In this document: positions 925 to 9,422 of the stretch, in pieces | Position numbering within the stretch: position 1 is the first letter of the stretch | Layout: every line of letters starts with the position of its first letter | Assembly (NCBI GenBank): GCA_947472885.1 | Contig: CANJBX010000004.1 | Span: forward strand, 1 to 64,000 | DNA from: Hyphomicrobiaceae bacterium | GTDB taxonomy: Bacteria; Pseudomonadota; Alphaproteobacteria; Rhizobiales; Xanthobacteraceae | Length of the DNA stretch: 64,000 bases | Direction of reading: 5' to 3' | The notes under the pieces: generated by a model | Told to the model about the DNA's origin: nothing | What the model saw: the letters and a program-made list of their open reading frames with translations, nothing else | The model's database searches: none | Translations under genes and position numbers: made by a program

Positions 925-2124
925 CTAGCGTGACGCAAGGCTCTTAGTTAATTGGGCCAAAAATGCTTGCCCAGCCACGTCAGGGGAGGTGCCGATATTA
1001 AATATTAGACTTTCGATAGAGACGTCCTTCGCATGGAGCACCTGCACTGGGCTTGCCAGCGTTGACGGATATACGAGGAATGCGCGATTCACTCGGAGCT
1101 CGTGCGCGTAAAAAGCGATTTGATATATATCTGCCTCTGAGGGGTGCTCGCTCGCTTTGTACTTTGTATCGAGCACCGCGATCGGCTGCTGAGTAACTTC
1201 GTCGTTCAACAAGATATCAATACGAATCTTCATTTCAAAATTCGCATCAAGCTGGGCGTGGTGTTGACAGCGAACGGTCATGCCTTGCGGTTCATTCGCT
1301 CGTAGCCATTCCGCGATGAAGGATTCGAAGAGCTGCGGCATATAGAGTTCGAAGGGTATGAAAGTGCGGGTGTCCGGTTTTATTCCGGGGCCCGTGTGCT
1401 CAAGGATAAAGCGGCAAAGTCCATGCATCGGTGAATAGTCGTCGTTTAGACGATTGTATATTCTGTTGACGCAATCGCTTGCTGTGTGGCGATCTAATGT
1501 GATTGTTCCAGCCAGGGTGCGCCGTGCACGATCCAGCTCAATCCGAACTTTGTCATGCTGAAGGGCTTGGCGGTGCACTTGGTGGAGAGTCCACAGTAGT
1601 ATCCGATTTTCTTCGATATCGGCAGTGTGCTCTTCGTAATGGCAGGGCATAAGCGGAATGCCGAGTGCGCAGTTCAATGCGGCGCCAACGACATCTACTT
1701 GTCCTCGTAGGTATGGTAGCTCTTCAGTCTGTTCGATGTAATTTCTATAAAGGCCCTTCCGCGCACGATTGAGAACACGACGTGCCAGAATCGATACAAT
1801 TCGCTCGTAAACATCTGCAAGGCTTTCGACTAAAACCTCGCCATCGAACAGGCGGAAAGATTTGAGATTGTAAGCTACCTCAAGCATTCGAAAAATGTTG
1901 GCAACAGGCACCTTAGGAATGACGCGGACTAGCAAGTCATCGCCAATGGGTATCTGTCCAATCCAGCCGTGCGACCGAACGCTACACATGTAGCCATTCA
2001 GCGGGCTCGCTGGTTCGACGTCGAATTTTCGGGAGTCGCGCAACGCCAGAATTTCGGTGTCGAGAAGATGGTCTTGCGGGAATTTCGCAGCCACTTCCTC
2101 TTGCAGGTCAATGACACGCTGCAT
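925..2124 (-). CDS. mcrC: McrC-family nuclease subunit of a type IV (5mC-type) restriction system
   Basis: McrC-like subunit of 399 aa, encoded directly after the mcrB-like gene. An N-terminal McrC-specific part precedes a C-terminal PD-(D/E)XK nuclease motif: Asp in KIRIDILL, then the D-x-K triad in AVLDTKYK, followed by the helix with QIAFYAHEL. In this family McrC cuts DNA after McrB GTPase-driven translocation between modified sites. The start is placed at ATG 2124, 5 nt after the mcrB stop. The frame stays open to a TTG at 2247, but that would overlap mcrB by 118 nt. Base composition is lower in GC than the core genes. The IS21 end lies 30 bp past its stop, so the gene is not interrupted. 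Confidence 0.88.
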   Translation of the reverse strand: MQRVIDLQEEVAAKFPQDHLLDTEILALRDSRKFDVEPASPLNGYMCSVRSHGWIGQIPIGDDLLVRVIPKVPVANIFRMLEVAYNLKSFRLFDGEVLVESLADVYERIVSILARRVLNRARKGLYRNYIEQTEELPYLRGQVDVVGAALNCALGIPLMPCHYEEHTADIEENRILLWTLHQVHRQALQHDKVRIELDRARRTLAGTITLDRHTASDCVNRIYNRLNDDYSPMHGLCRFILEHTGPGIKPDTRTFIPFELYMPQLFESFIAEWLRANEPQGMTVRCQHHAQLDANFEMKIRIDILLNDEVTQQPIAVLDTKYKASEHPSEADIYQIAFYAHELRVNRAFLVYPSTLASPVQVLHAKDVSIESLIFNIGTSPDVAGQAFLAQLTKSLASR

Positions 2125-2129
2125 TTTGT

Positions 2130-4568
2130 CTATTGGTTCCAAGACGCCAATATGCCGGTCGAAAGGGTTTTCCAGCGCAGCGGTTCCAATTTGCTGGGTT
2201 GGTCGTAGAAGTACTCTTCCAAGTACGGTTCTATTTCGCCTTCCCAAATGTCCCTTAGAGTTGACGGAAGCGCGGCGCCGTCCTTCAGGAAAAAGGAAAT
2301 GCCAATCTCGTAATTGGGGTCGTTGATTACAGCGTTTACGGTTTGTAAGGCCTTGAGTAGGTCCTCGGCAGCGAGGCCATTCGTTTCAAGTTGTGTGCGC
2401 AATACGTCGTAATCTGGAGCAAGGTGAATGAAGCTGAAGCGCCTGCGCAAGGCGTGATCGACGACAGCGATCGACCGGTCGGCTGTGTTCATTGTGCCGA
2501 TTATGTAAACGTTGGTTGGAATACCAAAGAGCTTTTCTTCCCCAGCCAGTGGGATTGTCTTGTCTCGGTATTCGAGAAGGTACATTAGCTCGCCGAATAT
2601 GCGTGCCAAGTTTCCCCGATTGATCTCGTCGATGATTAGGACGCATGGGGAACCGTCAGTGATCCTTTGTGCATTCTTACAGAATTGCAAAAAGCGACCC
2701 GGCATACGCATGAAAGTCATTTGGCCGTCTTGCACGACCGGACGAATGCCATGCATGAAATCTTCATAACCGTAGGATGGATGAAATTGTACTGTTTCAA
2801 TGATCCCATGGGTCTTGCTGATTAAGAGCCGAGCCAACTTATCTGCAACATAAGTTTTTCCTGTCCCCGGGGGGCCTTGGAAAATGAGGTGTTGCTTTCG
2901 CTTCAGGCGGCTCAACCAAATCGCAATGGTCTCCTCTGCGATGGCTGTCTCGGTCGAGAAGTTTTCTACCGAGTATTCGGGTGCAATTTTTACCGAAAGT
3001 GCAGGGGGGAGTGCCGTATCCGAGAGCCCGATCAATTGTTCTAGCTCGTCAACCAAGATTTCATTGTCAGTAATCTCTGTAAGCGTCTTCATTGAAAGCA
3101 GACGGTGCGTTGCGGTTGGCCACGTGCCACTTTTTTCCCATTCGACATCGCGGATATGTCGGTAGAACGCCCGGTCGGGTTCGAAGCGATAGTCGGACTT
3201 TACTTTTCCAAACCCAATAATTTCCCGCCGGCCCCTCTTCGCGAAGACCCAATCCCCCGGCATCATGCGGTGGGAAAAATCGAAGCATTGGTTTGCGTTT
3301 ACGAGAGATTGCGGCTCGGGAGCCGTTTGATTCATTAGCGCTTTGGTCGCTTCCGCATCGCTGCAGCCACTTAAGTCGCCGACGTAGTCCCAGCCAATGC
3401 CCGCGATACCCGCATCTCGGAACTCGTCCCAGTGCTTTGCGTCTTGACCTGGAGCGTAAAGCCAAACGCGGCGAAACTCTTCTTTGTCATGTTTTGGCTG
3501 TTGGTATTCTGCGTCGGCAATTGGGGGCGCGGAAGGCATGGGGAGGCTTCCAAACAAATGATGGCCTGCTTGGCCGCTATAAACTTCGTCGAGTAGTTTC
3601 ACCAGCTGTTCGGGCACTGCGGTTAAGTATCCGCCCTGATGAAGATTGAGATTGGGATCATAAAATAAATTCCGGTGCGCCTTTCGAATTTCTACAAGGC
3701 GGTCACGTGCATTTTGATTTGAAAAGAGTTCTTCGCGCGCAAAGGGCGGGATTAGTGGGGTTAAGTCACGAAGCTGGACGCGGTAGCACGGCTGGCCTGC
3801 CCAAGCGGTGTTTTCAATGCCCACAAAATCTGGGCGGGCTCGACTGTCAGCTTGAGATATTCCGCTAAATCCAGAATTGTCGGTGAGGTGTAGAATTATA
3901 TCGTTTGGCTGCACCAGCCGCATGTTCTGGTAAATATCGGCGCCATCTTGGGACCGAAGTGGCGACCATAAAGCGTGACCAACTGCGTGGTCGCCATCCG
4001 TTCGATCCGGTCGGTCCTTGGTGAGGGATTTTTCAACCCATACGGCGGGGTATTGCCGCGTTAGCAGCTGCCATTGCCCGTGCTCTGAGGGGTCAATAAT
4101 CTTTTCCGCAACCAAGTCGCGGCGCGCCTGCCGAACTCGGTTTTGCCAACTGTTTTCGTTGGACACCTTCAAAATCATTTCGCGAAGATGCTTTGGCAGC
4201 GAAAATTGATTGGCTAGGAGTTCATAGGCCTCGTTGGGCTCAATAGGAGCAGGAGCTTGGGCCAGCAGAAGGTCATGCAATGCAACCTTCACTTCCCCTT
4301 TGGTTGGAAGCCCCAATGCTTCAATCTTGAACCCGCGTTTTTGCAGGTAGGTATTTGCTTCGGTGCCACCGCTGAACTCCGCGTTCGGAATTCCAGTAGC
4401 CAATGCGACAATCTGTTTGGGGGGGTAAAACTTGCCATTCTTTGAAAGGGCATATTTGTAACTTTCGCGCTCTTCCCAGCCCTGCCACGTCGGTAATGGA
4501 CGGTCGTCTCGATCAAATTGAGCGAGAGCCTCGTCTATACGCTCGGAACTTACTGGGGGGAGTGGCAT
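2130..4568 (-). CDS. mcrB: McrB-like GTPase subunit with N-terminal reader domains
   Basis: This 812-aa protein combines several predicted modules ahead of a McrB AAA+ motor. Residues about 20-80 resemble the N-terminal head of ScoMcrA-type enzymes (TWQGWEERESYKYAL). Residues about 90-170 look like a winged-helix/Mrr-N-like segment. Two PUA/EVE-like modules follow, about 200-325 and 364-480 (RRVWLYAPGQ... PGDWVFAKRGRREIIGFG). The motor has Walker A GPPGTGKT near 563, Walker B LIIDEINRGN near 643 and the McrB hallmark MNTADRS near 691. EVE/PUA-like domains in this class read modified bases, so I infer recognition of modified phage or foreign DNA. The start is ATG 4568 (MPLPPVSSERIDEAL); the frame extends only to a TTG at 4646. 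Domain assignments other than the motor are by eye. Confidence 0.9.
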   Translation of the reverse strand: MPLPPVSSERIDEALAQFDRDDRPLPTWQGWEERESYKYALSKNGKFYPPKQIVALATGIPNAEFSGGTEANTYLQKRGFKIEALGLPTKGEVKVALHDLLLAQAPAPIEPNEAYELLANQFSLPKHLREMILKVSNENSWQNRVRQARRDLVAEKIIDPSEHGQWQLLTRQYPAVWVEKSLTKDRPDRTDGDHAVGHALWSPLRSQDGADIYQNMRLVQPNDIILHLTDNSGFSGISQADSRARPDFVGIENTAWAGQPCYRVQLRDLTPLIPPFAREELFSNQNARDRLVEIRKAHRNLFYDPNLNLHQGGYLTAVPEQLVKLLDEVYSGQAGHHLFGSLPMPSAPPIADAEYQQPKHDKEEFRRVWLYAPGQDAKHWDEFRDAGIAGIGWDYVGDLSGCSDAEATKALMNQTAPEPQSLVNANQCFDFSHRMMPGDWVFAKRGRREIIGFGKVKSDYRFEPDRAFYRHIRDVEWEKSGTWPTATHRLLSMKTLTEITDNEILVDELEQLIGLSDTALPPALSVKIAPEYSVENFSTETAIAEETIAIWLSRLKRKQHLIFQGPPGTGKTYVADKLARLLISKTHGIIETVQFHPSYGYEDFMHGIRPVVQDGQMTFMRMPGRFLQFCKNAQRITDGSPCVLIIDEINRGNLARIFGELMYLLEYRDKTIPLAGEEKLFGIPTNVYIIGTMNTADRSIAVVDHALRRRFSFIHLAPDYDVLRTQLETNGLAAEDLLKALQTVNAVINDPNYEIGISFFLKDGAALPSTLRDIWEGEIEPYLEEYFYDQPSKLEPLRWKTLSTGILASWNQ

Positions 4569-5004
4569 GGTTGCTTGGGCAGTCTCTGCGATTGACCATT
4601 GAAGGATGCAACATTCGCCGATCGATTGCGAAGGGGCAATTCTCAATGCTTACGCGAATGCGATGGTGTGGTTGCCTGCTATTCGGCCCCGTTCGGGCCC
4701 CCAGCGTCGGGCCTAACGATCAAGGTGGTGACCGGGCTACAAAAGAGAGCTACAAAGCGGTCTGAGTAGTGGTTCTATAATGTGTTGTTTATCAATATCT
4801 TAGGTCGACCCAAGCGGTTTCTTCTCGGCCGCACCATCTAAAAAATAGGCGATTGAACCGGGGTGGGTTTGATCGCTGCCGCCCGCACCCGATACGAGGT
4901 GCGGGAACAGATGTCCGCCCATCCCCAAAATCGTATTTTTGAAAAGCCGTCACTTGCCGCGGGGCCGGCGTTGCGCACGACGGTCGCGCGTCCGCCCCTG
5001 CCGT
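4569..5004. other. intergenic region upstream of mcrB, no gene recognised
   Basis: This 436-bp gap lies between the mcrB start and the stop of the deacetylase gene. Both neighbours are on the minus strand, so it contains the 5' region of mcrB. I see no tRNA, no convincing ORF and no clear terminator. A TATAAT at about 4776 on the plus strand has no matching -35. The mixed base composition may mark the edge of the McrBC islet. Confidence 0.5.
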
Positions 5005-5811
5005 TCAGCGCGGTGGCACGACGTGGACAATCTTGTAGCCGCCGGCTTTGAGCGCGCGCAGCAGGCCCGGCAGCATCTCGGCGGTCTGCTGTTTGGTGTC
5101 GTGCAGCAGCAAGATGCCGCCGTTGCTGTGGCGGAGCCGCGCCATCACCAGTTCAAGCTGCTCCTGCGGCCGCATTGGATTCCAGTCGCCCGCCCATTCG
5201 TCGGCGCCAAACACCACGATCTTGCGCGCCGCGAGCCGCTCCAGCAGTTCCGGCGACGACACAAATCCCGGAAACCGGAAGAACGGCGTGCGCGGCTCGG
5301 CACCGGCCTTGCCGTAGAGCGCGATGTCGTCGGCGGCGAAGCCGCGGTTGATATCGGCCATCGCCCGGTCGGGCTTTATGTGACCGAGCAGGGGGTGATT
5401 ATAGGAGTGATGGGCGACGGTGTGGCCCTCGGCCAGTTCGCGTCTGGCCAGCGCCGGCGATTTCACCGCCATGCGGCCCAGCAGAAAAAACGTCGCTCGG
5501 ACGCATTCGGACTTGAGCGTATCGAGGATGCGTCCGGTGGTGCCGGGCAACGGACCATCGTCGAACGTCAGCGCGACTTCCTTGGGCCGGAGCGGCAGCG
5601 TGGTCGGGAAATGCTTGCGGCCCACACGCGGCGTCGAACTGTCCACGGTCAGGATGCGCGCGGTGCCGAGCGCATCGGGGCGTCCCGCGCAATCTGCGCC
5701 CGTGGCTGTCGCGGCACTGACATTCCACAGTGACATCACACCGGCGAGCGCAATCACGCCCTTGAACCCTCGCCGGGTTTGCCACGTTGAAAAGCCGAGC
5801 GTACAAGCCAT
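5005..5811 (-). CDS. polysaccharide deacetylase (NodB/CE4 family), exported
   Basis: 268-aa CE4-type deacetylase with a hydrophobic N-terminal segment (about residues 18-36), probably a signal peptide. Catalytic motifs are visible: motif 1 TFDDGP near residue 82, motif 2 HSYNHP near 134, motif 3 with PFFRFPGF near 172, and the C-terminal LLLHD. These enzymes remove N- or O-acetyl groups from chitooligosaccharides, peptidoglycan or exopolysaccharide. The substrate cannot be told from sequence. The gene diverges from mgtE with only 58 bp between starts. A second, longer CE4 protein lies at 45978-47144. Confidence 0.88.
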   Translation of the reverse strand: MACTLGFSTWQTRRGFKGVIALAGVMSLWNVSAATATGADCAGRPDALGTARILTVDSSTPRVGRKHFPTTLPLRPKEVALTFDDGPLPGTTGRILDTLKSECVRATFFLLGRMAVKSPALARRELAEGHTVAHHSYNHPLLGHIKPDRAMADINRGFAADDIALYGKAGAEPRTPFFRFPGFVSSPELLERLAARKIVVFGADEWAGDWNPMRPQEQLELVMARLRHSNGGILLLHDTKQQTAEMLPGLLRALKAGGYKIVHVVPPR

Positions 5812-5869
5812 GACGAACTATCTTTCGAACTATCCATTTTCAGTCGCGCAAGTGGAACCGTGATCCGGC

Positions 5870-7285
5870 ATGGCCGACCCGCAAGACATGACCGTCGTAA
5901 CGCCAGACCCCGCTGCCGTCGAGTTACGCGACGCCGCCGGCGCCATTAGTCCTGAATATGTTGAACGGGTGGTTGAGGCCATCTACGCGTCCGACGCCGC
6001 GACCCTGCGCGACCTTGTCGGCGACCTGCATGAGGCCGACAGCGGCGACCTGATCGAGGCACTCGACCCGGAAGACCGCCCGCGTCTCGTGACGCTGATG
6101 GGCGCCGACTTCGACTTCACGGCGCTGACCGAAGTCGACGATACGGTGCGCGAGGACATTCTCGAGGAATTATCGACCTCGACCGTGGCCGAGGGCGTCC
6201 GTGACCTCGATAGCGACGATGCCGTCCGCATTCTCGAGGACCTGCCCAAGGACGAGCAGGACGAAATCCTCGACCAGCTGCCGGCCTCCGAGCGCGTCGC
6301 GCTGGCCCGCAGCCTCGATTACCCGGAAGCGTCCGCCGGCCGGCGCATGCAGGACGAGGTCATCGCCGTTCCGCCGGCCTGGACCGTCGGCCACGCCATC
6401 GACTACCTGCGCGAGACGGCGGAACTGCCGGATCGCTTTTACGAAATCTATGTCGTCGATCCGGACCGCAAGCTCCTCGGCGCCGTCGCGCTCGACAAGC
6501 TGCTGCGCACCAATCGCCCGGTTTCGGTCTCCGAACTGATGGACGAGGATTTCCGCCGCGTCCACGCCGACGACGACCAGGAGGAAGTGGCGCGCATGTT
6601 CGAGCGCTACAATCTGATCGCGGTGCCGGTGGTGGACGACGACGACCGGCTGGTCGGCATGATCACGTTCGACGACATCGTCGATGTCATCGAGGAAGAG
6701 GCCGAAGAAGACATCAAGGCGCTCGGCGGTGTGGCCCGTGAGGAAGAACTTTCCGATACGGTGTGGACGATTACGCGCGGCCGCTTCAACTGGCTGCTGG
6801 TCAATCTCGGGACCGCGTTCCTGGCGTCCTCCGTGCTTGGCGCGTTCGAGGGTGAATTGCAGAAGATGGTCGCTCTCGCGGTGCTGGCGCCGATTGTCGC
6901 CAGTCAGGGCGGTAATGCGGCGACCCAGACCATGACCGTGGCCGTGCGCGCGCTCGCCACCCGCGAACTGAACGACTCCAACGCGATGCGCGTGATCGTG
7001 CGCGAATTGCTGGTCGGCCTGCTGAATGGAATTGCGTTCGCCGTCATCACCGGCGTCGCGGCCTATGCGTGGTTCCGCGTGCCGGACCTCGGCATCGTCA
7101 TCGCGCTGGCGATGTTGTGTAACCTGGTCGCAGCGGCGCTCGGCGGCATTCTCATTCCGCTGATCCTGCACCGCCTGAAGGCCGATCCGGCGGTGTCGTC
7201 CGGGGTGTTCGTCACGACGATCACCGATGTGGTCGGGTTCTTCTCGTTCCTCGGCATTGCGTCCCTGTGGTTCGGCTTCAAATAG
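5870..7285 (+). CDS. mgtE: magnesium transporter MgtE
   Basis: 471 aa, with the canonical MgtE layout. A helical MgtE_N domain (about 35-140) is followed by a CBS pair (about 145-265) ending IAVPVVDDDDRLVGMITFDD, then a plug helix and five predicted membrane helices (about 295-470). The pore region contains the conserved GGNAATQTMTV. MgtE is a Mg2+-selective channel whose cytosolic N and CBS domains close it when Mg2+ is plentiful. The many acidic residues in the N domain fit the Mg2+-sensing role. ATG 5870 lies 58 bp from the divergent deacetylase start. I see no M-box-like leader in so short a space. Confidence 0.95.
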   Translation: MADPQDMTVVTPDPAAVELRDAAGAISPEYVERVVEAIYASDAATLRDLVGDLHEADSGDLIEALDPEDRPRLVTLMGADFDFTALTEVDDTVREDILEELSTSTVAEGVRDLDSDDAVRILEDLPKDEQDEILDQLPASERVALARSLDYPEASAGRRMQDEVIAVPPAWTVGHAIDYLRETAELPDRFYEIYVVDPDRKLLGAVALDKLLRTNRPVSVSELMDEDFRRVHADDDQEEVARMFERYNLIAVPVVDDDDRLVGMITFDDIVDVIEEEAEEDIKALGGVAREEELSDTVWTITRGRFNWLLVNLGTAFLASSVLGAFEGELQKMVALAVLAPIVASQGGNAATQTMTVAVRALATRELNDSNAMRVIVRELLVGLLNGIAFAVITGVAAYAWFRVPDLGIVIALAMLCNLVAAALGGILIPLILHRLKADPAVSSGVFVTTITDVVGFFSFLGIASLWFGFK

Positions 7286-7354
7286 CGCCCGGAAACACCT
7301 GACAAGCATTGTTGCCGGTCCTACACTTGTCCCAACGAAGTGCGGGAGGCTTTG

Positions 7355-8527
7355 ATGATTCCGAATGCCTGGAGCGGCTTCAATTTCGGGCTGGGCGAGG
7401 ATGTCGATGCGCTGCGCGATAGCGCGCGTTCGTTCTCGCAGGACCGGACTGCTCCCCGTGCGGCCGAGATCGACCGCGACAACAAATTTCCGCGCGACCT
7501 GTGGCCTGAGATGGGCTAGCTCGGATTGCTCGGTATTACCGCCGACGAGGAACACGGCGGCGCGGGGATGGGGTATCTCGCGCATTGCGTCGCGATGGAG
7601 GAAGTCTCGCGCGCGTCGGCGTCGGTTGGATTGTCCTATGGCGCGCATTCGAACCTGTGCGTCAACCAGCTCAGCCGCAACGGCACGGCAGAGCAAAAGA
7701 AAAAATACCTGCCGAAGCTGATTTCCGGCGAACACGTCGGCGCGCTGGCGATGTCGGAGCCTTCCGCGGGGTCCGATGTGGTGTCGATGCGTACCCGCGC
7801 CGACAAGAAGGGCGATCGCTACGTCCTCAACGGCTCGAAGATGTGGATCACCAACGGGCCGTTGGCGGATACCATTGTGGTCTATGCCAAGACCGACCGC
7901 ACGGCGGGCGCGCGCGGCATCACGGCCTTCATCGTCGAAAAAAGTTACAAGGGCTTCGCGCCGGCGCAGAAACTCGACAAGCTCGGCATGCGCGGCTCCG
8001 ACACCAGCGAACTCGTATTCACCGATTGCGAAGTGCCGGAAGAGAACGTCGTCGGCGCCGTCGGCAACGGCGTCAATATCCTGATGTCGGGCCTCGACTA
8101 CGAACGCGTCGTGCTGGCGGCGGGGCCGCTCGGCATCATGCAGGCGTGCATGGATGTGGTGATCCCCTATGTCCACGACCGCCAGCAGTTCGGCCAGCCC
8201 ATCGGGCGCTTCCAGCTGGTGCAGGCCAAGCTCGCCGACATGTACGTCACCATGAATGCGGCGAAATCTTACGTCTATGCGGTAGCCCGCGCGTGCGACG
8301 ACGGCCGCACCACGCGCGAGGATGCTGCGGGCGCAATCCTCTATGCGGCGGAGCGCGCGACTTGGATGGCGCTGGAGGCGATCCAGTGCCTCGGCGGCAA
8401 TGGCTACATCAACGATTTCCCGACCGGGCGGCTGCTGCGCGATGCCAAGCTCTACGAAATCGGGGCGGGGACCAGCGAAATCCGCCGCATGCTGATCGGG
8501 CGGGAACTTTTCGAGAAGACGCGATAA
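7355..8527 (+). pseudogene. ivd: isovaleryl-CoA dehydrogenase with in-frame amber stop
   Basis: Acyl-CoA dehydrogenase matching isovaleryl-CoA dehydrogenase over its length (390 codons), the FAD enzyme converting isovaleryl-CoA to 3-methylcrotonyl-CoA in leucine breakdown. ATG 7355 has a good ribosome-binding site (GGGAGG). Codon 55 is TAG (7517-7519), in the stretch PEMG*LGLLGIT where the family has Glu (GELGLLGI), so a GAG-to-TAG change explains it. The same frame resumes with [22 protein letters not shown], the FAD/substrate loop [23 protein letters not shown] and C-terminal [10 protein letters not shown]. Nothing else is damaged. It may be a recent null allele, a base-call error or a readthrough codon. 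Restarts after the stop would lack the N-terminal helices. Confidence 0.9.
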
Positions 8528-8603
8528 TGGGCGCATCTGGTATGAGTTCCCCGATTATGTGGCAGTCTGTAACCGCGGCGGCGATTCTGGTTTAGTGGTC
8601 GGC

Positions 8604-9422
8604 ATGGAAACCGTTTCAGCAAACGGCGCGAACATACCCGCGGTCGGTCTCGGCACCTGGGAACTGCGTGGGCGTACCTGCGCGCGGGTGGTCGAGCAGG
8701 CCTTGCGGCTTGGCTATCGCCACATCGACACCGCGGAAATGTATGACAACGAGCGCGATGTTGGCCTGGGCCTGCGCGCCTCGGGCGTCAGGCGCAGCGA
8801 CGTCTTCATCACGACGAAAATCTGGCCGACGCACCTCGCGCCGCTCGAACTCGAACGCGCCGCCAAGGAAAGCATCGCGCGAATGCGGCTGACCGAGGTC
8901 GATCTGCTGCTGATCCACTGGCCGAGCAAGGTCATTCCGCTGTCGGAAACGATTCCCGCGCTGTGCAAGCTGAAGACCGCGGGCTTCGCGCGGCACATCG
9001 GCGTGTCCAATTTCACGACGGCGCTGATCGAGGAAGCGGTGAAATACGCTACCGAGCCGCTCGTGACCAACCAGGTCGAATGGCATCCGTTCCTCGACCA
9101 GTCGAAGGTGCGCGCCGCCTGCACGCAGCACGGCATGGCCGTGACCGCCTACAGTCCGATTGCGCGCGGCAAGGCGAGCGAGAACAAGGCGCTGTCAATC
9201 ATCGGCGCGCGCAACCGCAAGTCCGCGGCGCAGGTCTGCCTGCGCTTTCTCATCCAGCAGGGCGCGATTGTCATTCCACGCACGTCCAAGATCGAGCGCC
9301 TCGCCGAGAACATGGATGTGTTTGACTTTATGCTCGATGACGCGGAAATGGATGAGATACGAAAACTGGCCAATCCGCGCGGGCGGATTGTCACCATGGG
9401 TTCCGGACCGGAGTGGGATTAG
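8604..9422 (+). CDS. aldo/keto reductase
   Basis: 272-aa AKR-superfamily (TIM barrel) NADPH-dependent reductase. The catalytic tetrad is visible: Asp and Tyr in DTAEMYDNE, Lys in ITTKIWP and His in LLIHWPSK. The NADP-binding C-terminal loop is present as IPRTSKIERLAENM. It most resembles 2,5-diketo-gluconate reductase-like AKRs, but the natural substrate is not predictable. The start is ATG 8604 (METVSANGANIPAVGLG); an upstream GTG at 8559 is less likely. It is 76 bp after the broken ivd and 3 bp before the RraA-like gene, so it probably forms an operon with the latter. Confidence 0.9.
   Translation: METVSANGANIPAVGLGTWELRGRTCARVVEQALRLGYRHIDTAEMYDNERDVGLGLRASGVRRSDVFITTKIWPTHLAPLELERAAKESIARMRLTEVDLLLIHWPSKVIPLSETIPALCKLKTAGFARHIGVSNFTTALIEEAVKYATEPLVTNQVEWHPFLDQSKVRAACTQHGMAVTAYSPIARGKASENKALSIIGARNRKSAAQVCLRFLIQQGAIVIPRTSKIERLAENMDVFDFMLDDAEMDEIRKLANPRGRIVTMGSGPEWD

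Follow-up and report, generated by a model that had tools for sequence, protein, structure and literature searches.

The mcrBC gene pair near the start of the window, by which we mean the whole stretch of 64,000 nucleotides that was analysed, probably encodes a McrBC defence enzyme of known type that cuts DNA carrying chemically modified bases. The McrB-type protein of 812 residues is read from the minus strand (2130..4568, with the ATG at 4568 and the stop ending at 2130), where the predicted open frame does exist; the plus strand of the same interval is broken by many stops. The chain is a rare arrangement of known parts. From the N-terminus it carries a head like that of ScoMcrA, an Mrr_N-like winged helix, two modules of the PUA/EVE kind and a McrB motor, which is the kind and order of parts given by the original prediction. 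We consider it likely that the pair is a Type IV McrBC system in which reader module 1 recognizes a modified cytosine and reader module 2 recognizes a second base or contacts the flanking DNA.

The mcrC gene (925..2124, minus strand, 399 aa) lies directly downstream, with its ATG at 2124, five bases past the mcrB stop. This start was picked by comparison with an uncharacterised relative from Bradyrhizobium huanghuaihaiense CGMCC 1.10948 (L001), whose McrC, with MRRIIELQEE as its first residues, starts four bases past the McrB stop, giving the same start and nearly the same spacing. The McrC protein belongs to the McrBC family (PF10117, 6.6e-41; E. coli McrC, 3.2e-7) and has a D..DTK nuclease motif of the PD-(D/E)xK type, in which DTK aligns with DAK of E. 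coli McrC. In windows over positions 1001-5000 the GC content is 0.50-0.54, lower than in the flank (4501 to 9000), where it is about 0.62-0.65. On the same strand as mcrBC and adjoining mcrC, a frame at 1-801 runs off the start of the contig, which begins at base 1; we take this frame to encode an IS21 IstA-like transposase. Given the low GC content and the transposase-like frame alongside, the mcrBC pair looks horizontally acquired. The genes on the other side are presumably a polysaccharide deacetylase-like frame, an MgtE-like transporter frame and other ordinary genes, and no defence island was seen on this readable side of the pair.

The GTPase motor occupies residues 530-800 (2169..2981, minus strand, as are all parts of the chain). 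It was matched by AAA_5 at residues 560-711 (E 4.2e-19), by the solved E. coli McrB structure (E 3.9e-52) and by the NCBIfam McrB model at 517-795, the last with E 4.9e-53 but with 180.5 bits against a cut-off of 637. Its motifs are intact, with Walker A GPPGTGKT (GKT at 570), IDEINR at 646 and MNTAD at 693, so that the Walker A and NxxD signatures of Type IV McrBC systems are both present. The NxD signature, which defines the CoCoNuT branch of McrBC according to the accessible part of PMC11090510, is absent from the motor, which has NxxD (MNTAD) instead. The motor and McrC are thus like those of E. coli K-12 McrBC, whereas the E. coli reader, DUF3578/ADAM as given in the same partial source (PMC11090510), was not found here by domain scan.

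Reader module 1 (residues 172-345; 3534..4055) resembles the EVE domain of VcaM4I, an EVE-HNH enzyme. When compared with the PDB, it matched VcaM4I (6yex) with E 0.0013 from the single sequence and 7.1e-5 from five McrB-borne copies. Compared with four EVE-HNH proteins, taken from 4 other genomes of a 398-genome sample, it gave an hhalign probability of 97.7% over 121 columns. Pfam EVE (PF01878) reported no match to module 1 at E up to 10, a search in which the HMMER filters drop weak matches. A first AlphaFold2 model, covering 530 residues with three sequences and poor outside module 2, left module 1 with a pLDDT under 50 in the absence of EVE-HNH rows. A scan with the four EVE-HNH proteins yielded 64 viral contig loci, 38 of which were included in alignment A8. 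The model of module 1 built with A8 reached a mean pLDDT of 74.7 and a pTM of 0.71. Foldseek placed 6yex first for this model (E 2.1e-7), although with modest TM-scores of 0.44-0.49 of the query, and VIA-align superposed the two with Z 11.9 and rmsd 3.2 over 147 aligned residues; as 38 EVE-HNH rows went into the model, this fold is not independent of the sequence match. On the viral side, the 64 IMG/VR contig loci (L055-L118) carry predicted EVE domains of the VcaM4I type, and, judging from this sequence likeness, viral or prophage contigs often carry such modification-reading domains.

The EVE domain of VcaM4I is described, in the part of PMC7897488 available, as a 5mC/5hmC reader in which the flipped base is sandwiched by Y130, W82 and P24, its edge is read by Q10, T11, W22 and E15, and the gap is filled by Q128. 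In the direct alignment, W22, P24 and W82 correspond to W201, P203 and W256 of module 1. VcaM4I beyond residue 93 lies outside this alignment, and Q311 and Y314 take the places of Q128 and Y130 by the motif of the EVE-HNH family, with a spacing of three as against two in the printed VcaM4I numbering. All 38 EVE-HNH rows and both close proteins have the same residues at W201, P203, W256 and Y314, and 36 of the 38 rows have Q311. W256, Q311 and Y314 are also identical in the five McrB-borne copies of module 1, two of which are archaeal; in the two archaeal copies W201 is replaced by M or F, and P203 is either P or R. Among the edge-reading positions, the column of E15 holds E in all 38 EVE-HNH rows, but H194 here and H in L001. 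The neighbouring column 193 reads D, P, E, E, E in the alignment of McrB-borne modules only, and T190, compared with the edge-reading T11, is K in L001; at these edge-reading positions the alignment runs through a loop of different length. The aromatic pocket that had been sought in module 1 therefore appears to be there in its stacking part, with P203, W256 and Y314 as the predicted counterparts of P24, W82 and Y130, and the edge-reading part is unsure. Since the counterpart of E15 falls on H194 or the adjacent D193, cytosine reading is not assured. Module 1 and VcaM4I share one type of EVE domain, in which the stacking residues are retained, but VcaM4I works without a motor and uses an HNH domain of its own for cutting.

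Reader module 2 (residues 366-516; 3021..3473) is common to many McrB chains and to Mrr_cat proteins. Its fold is seen only through the model, because a profile search of the PDB found nothing and a single-sequence search of the PDB returned only unrelated weak matches. In the first model, the blocks from 381 to 480 have a pLDDT of 70-88, with 80-88 over most of 380-480. Foldseek with this model gave no match at E <= 0.001; by VIA-align, the modelled module came closest to 6yex_A (Z 11.0, rmsd 2.7, 119 residues aligned), followed by PH1033 (Z 10.8) and YTHDF2 (Z 9.6), the YTH domains lying at about 8-9.6. The two models suggest that module 1 (about 172-345) and module 2 would both adopt EVE/PUA folds, rather than the chain having only one reader fold. 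A recent duplication was considered as the origin of the two modules and ruled out, as the comparison of their profiles reached only 8.7%.

The YTH matches of module 2 bear on the idea that the enzyme reads 6mA, through a YTH-like module 2, the winged helix or both, with cytosine modification being unimportant. A YTH-McrB fusion of Thermococcus binds 6mA (Hosford 2020, as reported in the available parts of PMC7641849 and PMC11037411), and some winged helices read 6mA according to the excerpt of PMC11037411 (section 25). We nevertheless regard this reading as improbable: EVE proteins outrank YTH domains for module 2, the winged helix had no match in a PDB search, and the strong N6_N4_Mtase match in the genome of the organism itself (1.2e-66) means that adenine methylation may be a mark of self. 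This genome also contains two cytosine-5 methylase pieces (L043, L044). One follows a vsr-like frame and stops early, close to the end of its contig; the other is split over two frames. The methylase content is compatible with a cytosine target and proves nothing.

Where module 2 occurs elsewhere bears on whether it reads a base at all. It forms the N-terminal part of Mrr_cat proteins (L033), and in many McrB chains it stands either before the motor or between the Walker A motif and the AAA_5 part with Walker B. In six loci (L013-L016, L020, L023), module 2 is seemingly inserted inside the McrB motor. Insertions in McrB motors that are likely specificity domains have been described by Bell et al., according to the accessible part of PMC11090510 (section 6). 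On a Hymenobacter plasmid, a McrB protein (L031 3527-5452) has two copies of module 2 in tandem. The partners of module 2 are very varied (MrcB_N, EVE, HARE-HTH, its own second copy and Mrr_cat), and a part this common could be a general DNA-gripping piece; together with its position between Walker A and the AAA_5 part in several McrB proteins, this speaks for a McrBC enzyme of single specificity, in which only one module reads the modification and the other, close to the motor, serves as a structural spacer or binds DNA non-specifically. Against it, W369, W393 and W477 are invariant in all nine rows of aligned relatives, a pattern of a kept pocket and not of a spacer, as judged from the alignment without placing these residues in a structure, and the modelled fold of module 2 is nearest to base readers. 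We hold the single-specificity explanation to be a fairly serious contender, though not the expected one.

The presence of two potential reader modules had been taken as a sign that the enzyme recognizes another modification, either in place of 5mC or alongside it. This conclusion is weaker than the list of parts, as module 1 is related to the EVE domain of VcaM4I, itself a reader of 5mC and 5hmC. Moreover, at least two of MrcB_N, EVE, module 1 and module 2 were found in 5 of 19 other motor chains (L001, L003, L025, L027 and L031), so that several readers in one chain do not by themselves point to a new specificity. The 19 chains (L001-L003, L013-L017, L020, L023, L025-L032 and L034), scanned with Pfam and our own profiles, were chosen by their likeness to this protein, and 5 of 19 is neither a frequency nor drawn from a random sample. 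Among them, a planctomycete McrB (L003 738-3287) has a Pfam EVE domain followed by an EVE domain of the VcaM4I type. In a bolder version, each of the two modules would read a different modified base, the motor would fire only if both occur or, for a broad range, on either, and module 1 would read something other than plain 5mC or 5hmC owing to H194 in place of E15; this seems to us rather unlikely.

The head comprises residues 1-85 (4314..4568). Residues 6-82 matched a profile of eight heads of the ScoMcrA type with an hhalign probability of 97.0%, and the head matched a wider head alignment with 96.7%, as against 0.2% and 1.0% for two other families used as controls of the head profile. A Pfam scan of the head matched nothing, and hmmsearch of the PDB with the head profile ranked ScoMcrA (5zmm) behind unrelated ribosomal hits, with E 0.28 and 0.69. 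In the first AlphaFold2 model, the head has a pLDDT of about 30-50, which is low confidence. The ScoMcrA head is, in the part of PMC6224610 available, small, flexible and without known function, and separate from the sulfur-binding domain; any role of the head in the present enzyme would be presumptive.

ScoMcrA shares with the chain studied here the N-terminal head and the presence of several recognition parts in one chain, and differs in having sulfur-binding, SRA and HNH domains, as given in the available parts of PMC6224610 and PMC7461809. The first 83 residues resemble ScoMcrA residues 7-92, a likeness that might suggest a phosphorothioate-dependent enzyme. It is limited to the head, however, whereas sulfur binding belongs to a separate domain of ScoMcrA (PMC6224610, as far as accessible), and the same head is found on McrB, HNH and other proteins. 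As the ScoMcrA-like part is the head and not the sulfur-binding domain, there is no ground to expect phosphorothioate recognition; when the whole protein was compared with the PDB at E up to 1, no sulfur-binding domain was among the matches. We have set phosphorothioate recognition aside as very improbable, the part held in common with ScoMcrA being the head.

Heads of the ScoMcrA type were also seen on HNH proteins and on a McrB-like chain of Chlorohelix, and a search with the head only gave one weak plasmid match (E 0.2), which is another head on a McrB-like chain. On a Microvirga plasmid (L036 2998-5048), a ScoMcrA head is followed by a frame break and then by a frame with MrcB_N, EVE, module 2 and motor, which is itself truncated; upstream there is an IS630 transposase. 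ScoMcrA-like heads occur as well on proteins of 462-478 residues (L121, L122 and L123), which turned up in 3 of the 265 genomes searched from a related genus. These proteins have a D..ExK-like stretch, a motif picked out by eye, and L121, the one of the three that was scanned, had no Pfam match. From their sequences, they are possibly a nuclease family not yet described.

The winged helix occupies residues 88-170 (4059..4307). Mrr_N (PF14338) matched it at residues 109-168 with 27.1 bits in the whole protein, just below the curated cut-off of 29.5, and with 32.1 bits, above the cut-off, when the domain was scanned alone; the Bradyrhizobium relative gave 43.9 bits. A winged helix ahead of a McrB-like motor paired with McrC is also found in the NTD-wH-NTPase and McrC fusions, which are noted but not characterised in the available part of PMC11037411 (section 25).

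The Bradyrhizobium McrB (L001) is full length, 65% identical and has all five parts in the same order, with mcrC directly after mcrB as here; it differs in its other neighbour genes and in the linker between the two readers, which is 30% identical over 20 aligned residues. Comparison of the two genes gave pN/pS values of 0.204/0.874 for the head, 0.299/0.777 for the winged helix, 0.254/0.790 for module 1, 0.192/0.868 for module 2, 0.159/0.883 for the motor and 0.479/1.115 for the inter-reader linker (20 codons). As pS is at or above saturation, dS cannot be given. All four modules ahead of the motor are plainly under purifying selection, and the inter-reader linker is much less conserved.

When residues 1-350 were searched in 397 genomes of the order, the only match was this locus. 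A search of 265 genomes from a different genus within the family gave one further match, over residues 1-342 with 61% identity (G854), possibly from the L001 genome itself. Scans of viral contigs with the whole reader half, with module 1 or with module 2 returned no relative, and nothing in the phage records matched residues 1-530 at E up to 0.01. The exact domain order was found only here and in L001. A literature search, with supplements and many journals outside its coverage, turned up no paper on this domain order, and no close characterised homologue was found; the suggestion that this exact order is uncharacterised is consistent with these searches. In the EVE-McrB and YTH-McrB fusions (Bell 2020; Hosford 2020), a reader of the EVE superfamily sits on a McrB motor as it does here. 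Among the EVE fusions of defence systems, EVE-McrB is the most frequent and often has additional domains, according to the accessible part of PMC7641849. In contrast to these fusions, the present chain has two modules of different subfamilies together with a winged helix and a head.

Returning to the reading that we prefer, a McrBC enzyme in which module 1 reads modified cytosine, module 1 would flip a modified cytosine, most likely 5mC or 5hmC, into the pocket of P203, W256 and Y314, where Q311 would occupy the gap. Module 2 and the winged helix would grip the flanking DNA or recognize another flipped base, and the McrB ring would translocate with GTP until McrC, which would supply the PD-(D/E)xK nuclease, cuts.

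Altogether, the locus links the ScoMcrA head not only to HNH enzymes but also to a motor-driven nuclease. The recognition halves of McrB proteins are assembled from exchangeable modules, few of whose combinations have a known target. A chain that holds two readers of different EVE subfamilies together with a head and a winged helix, each of them under selection, would let an AND gate, an OR gate and a reader with a DNA grip be told apart.
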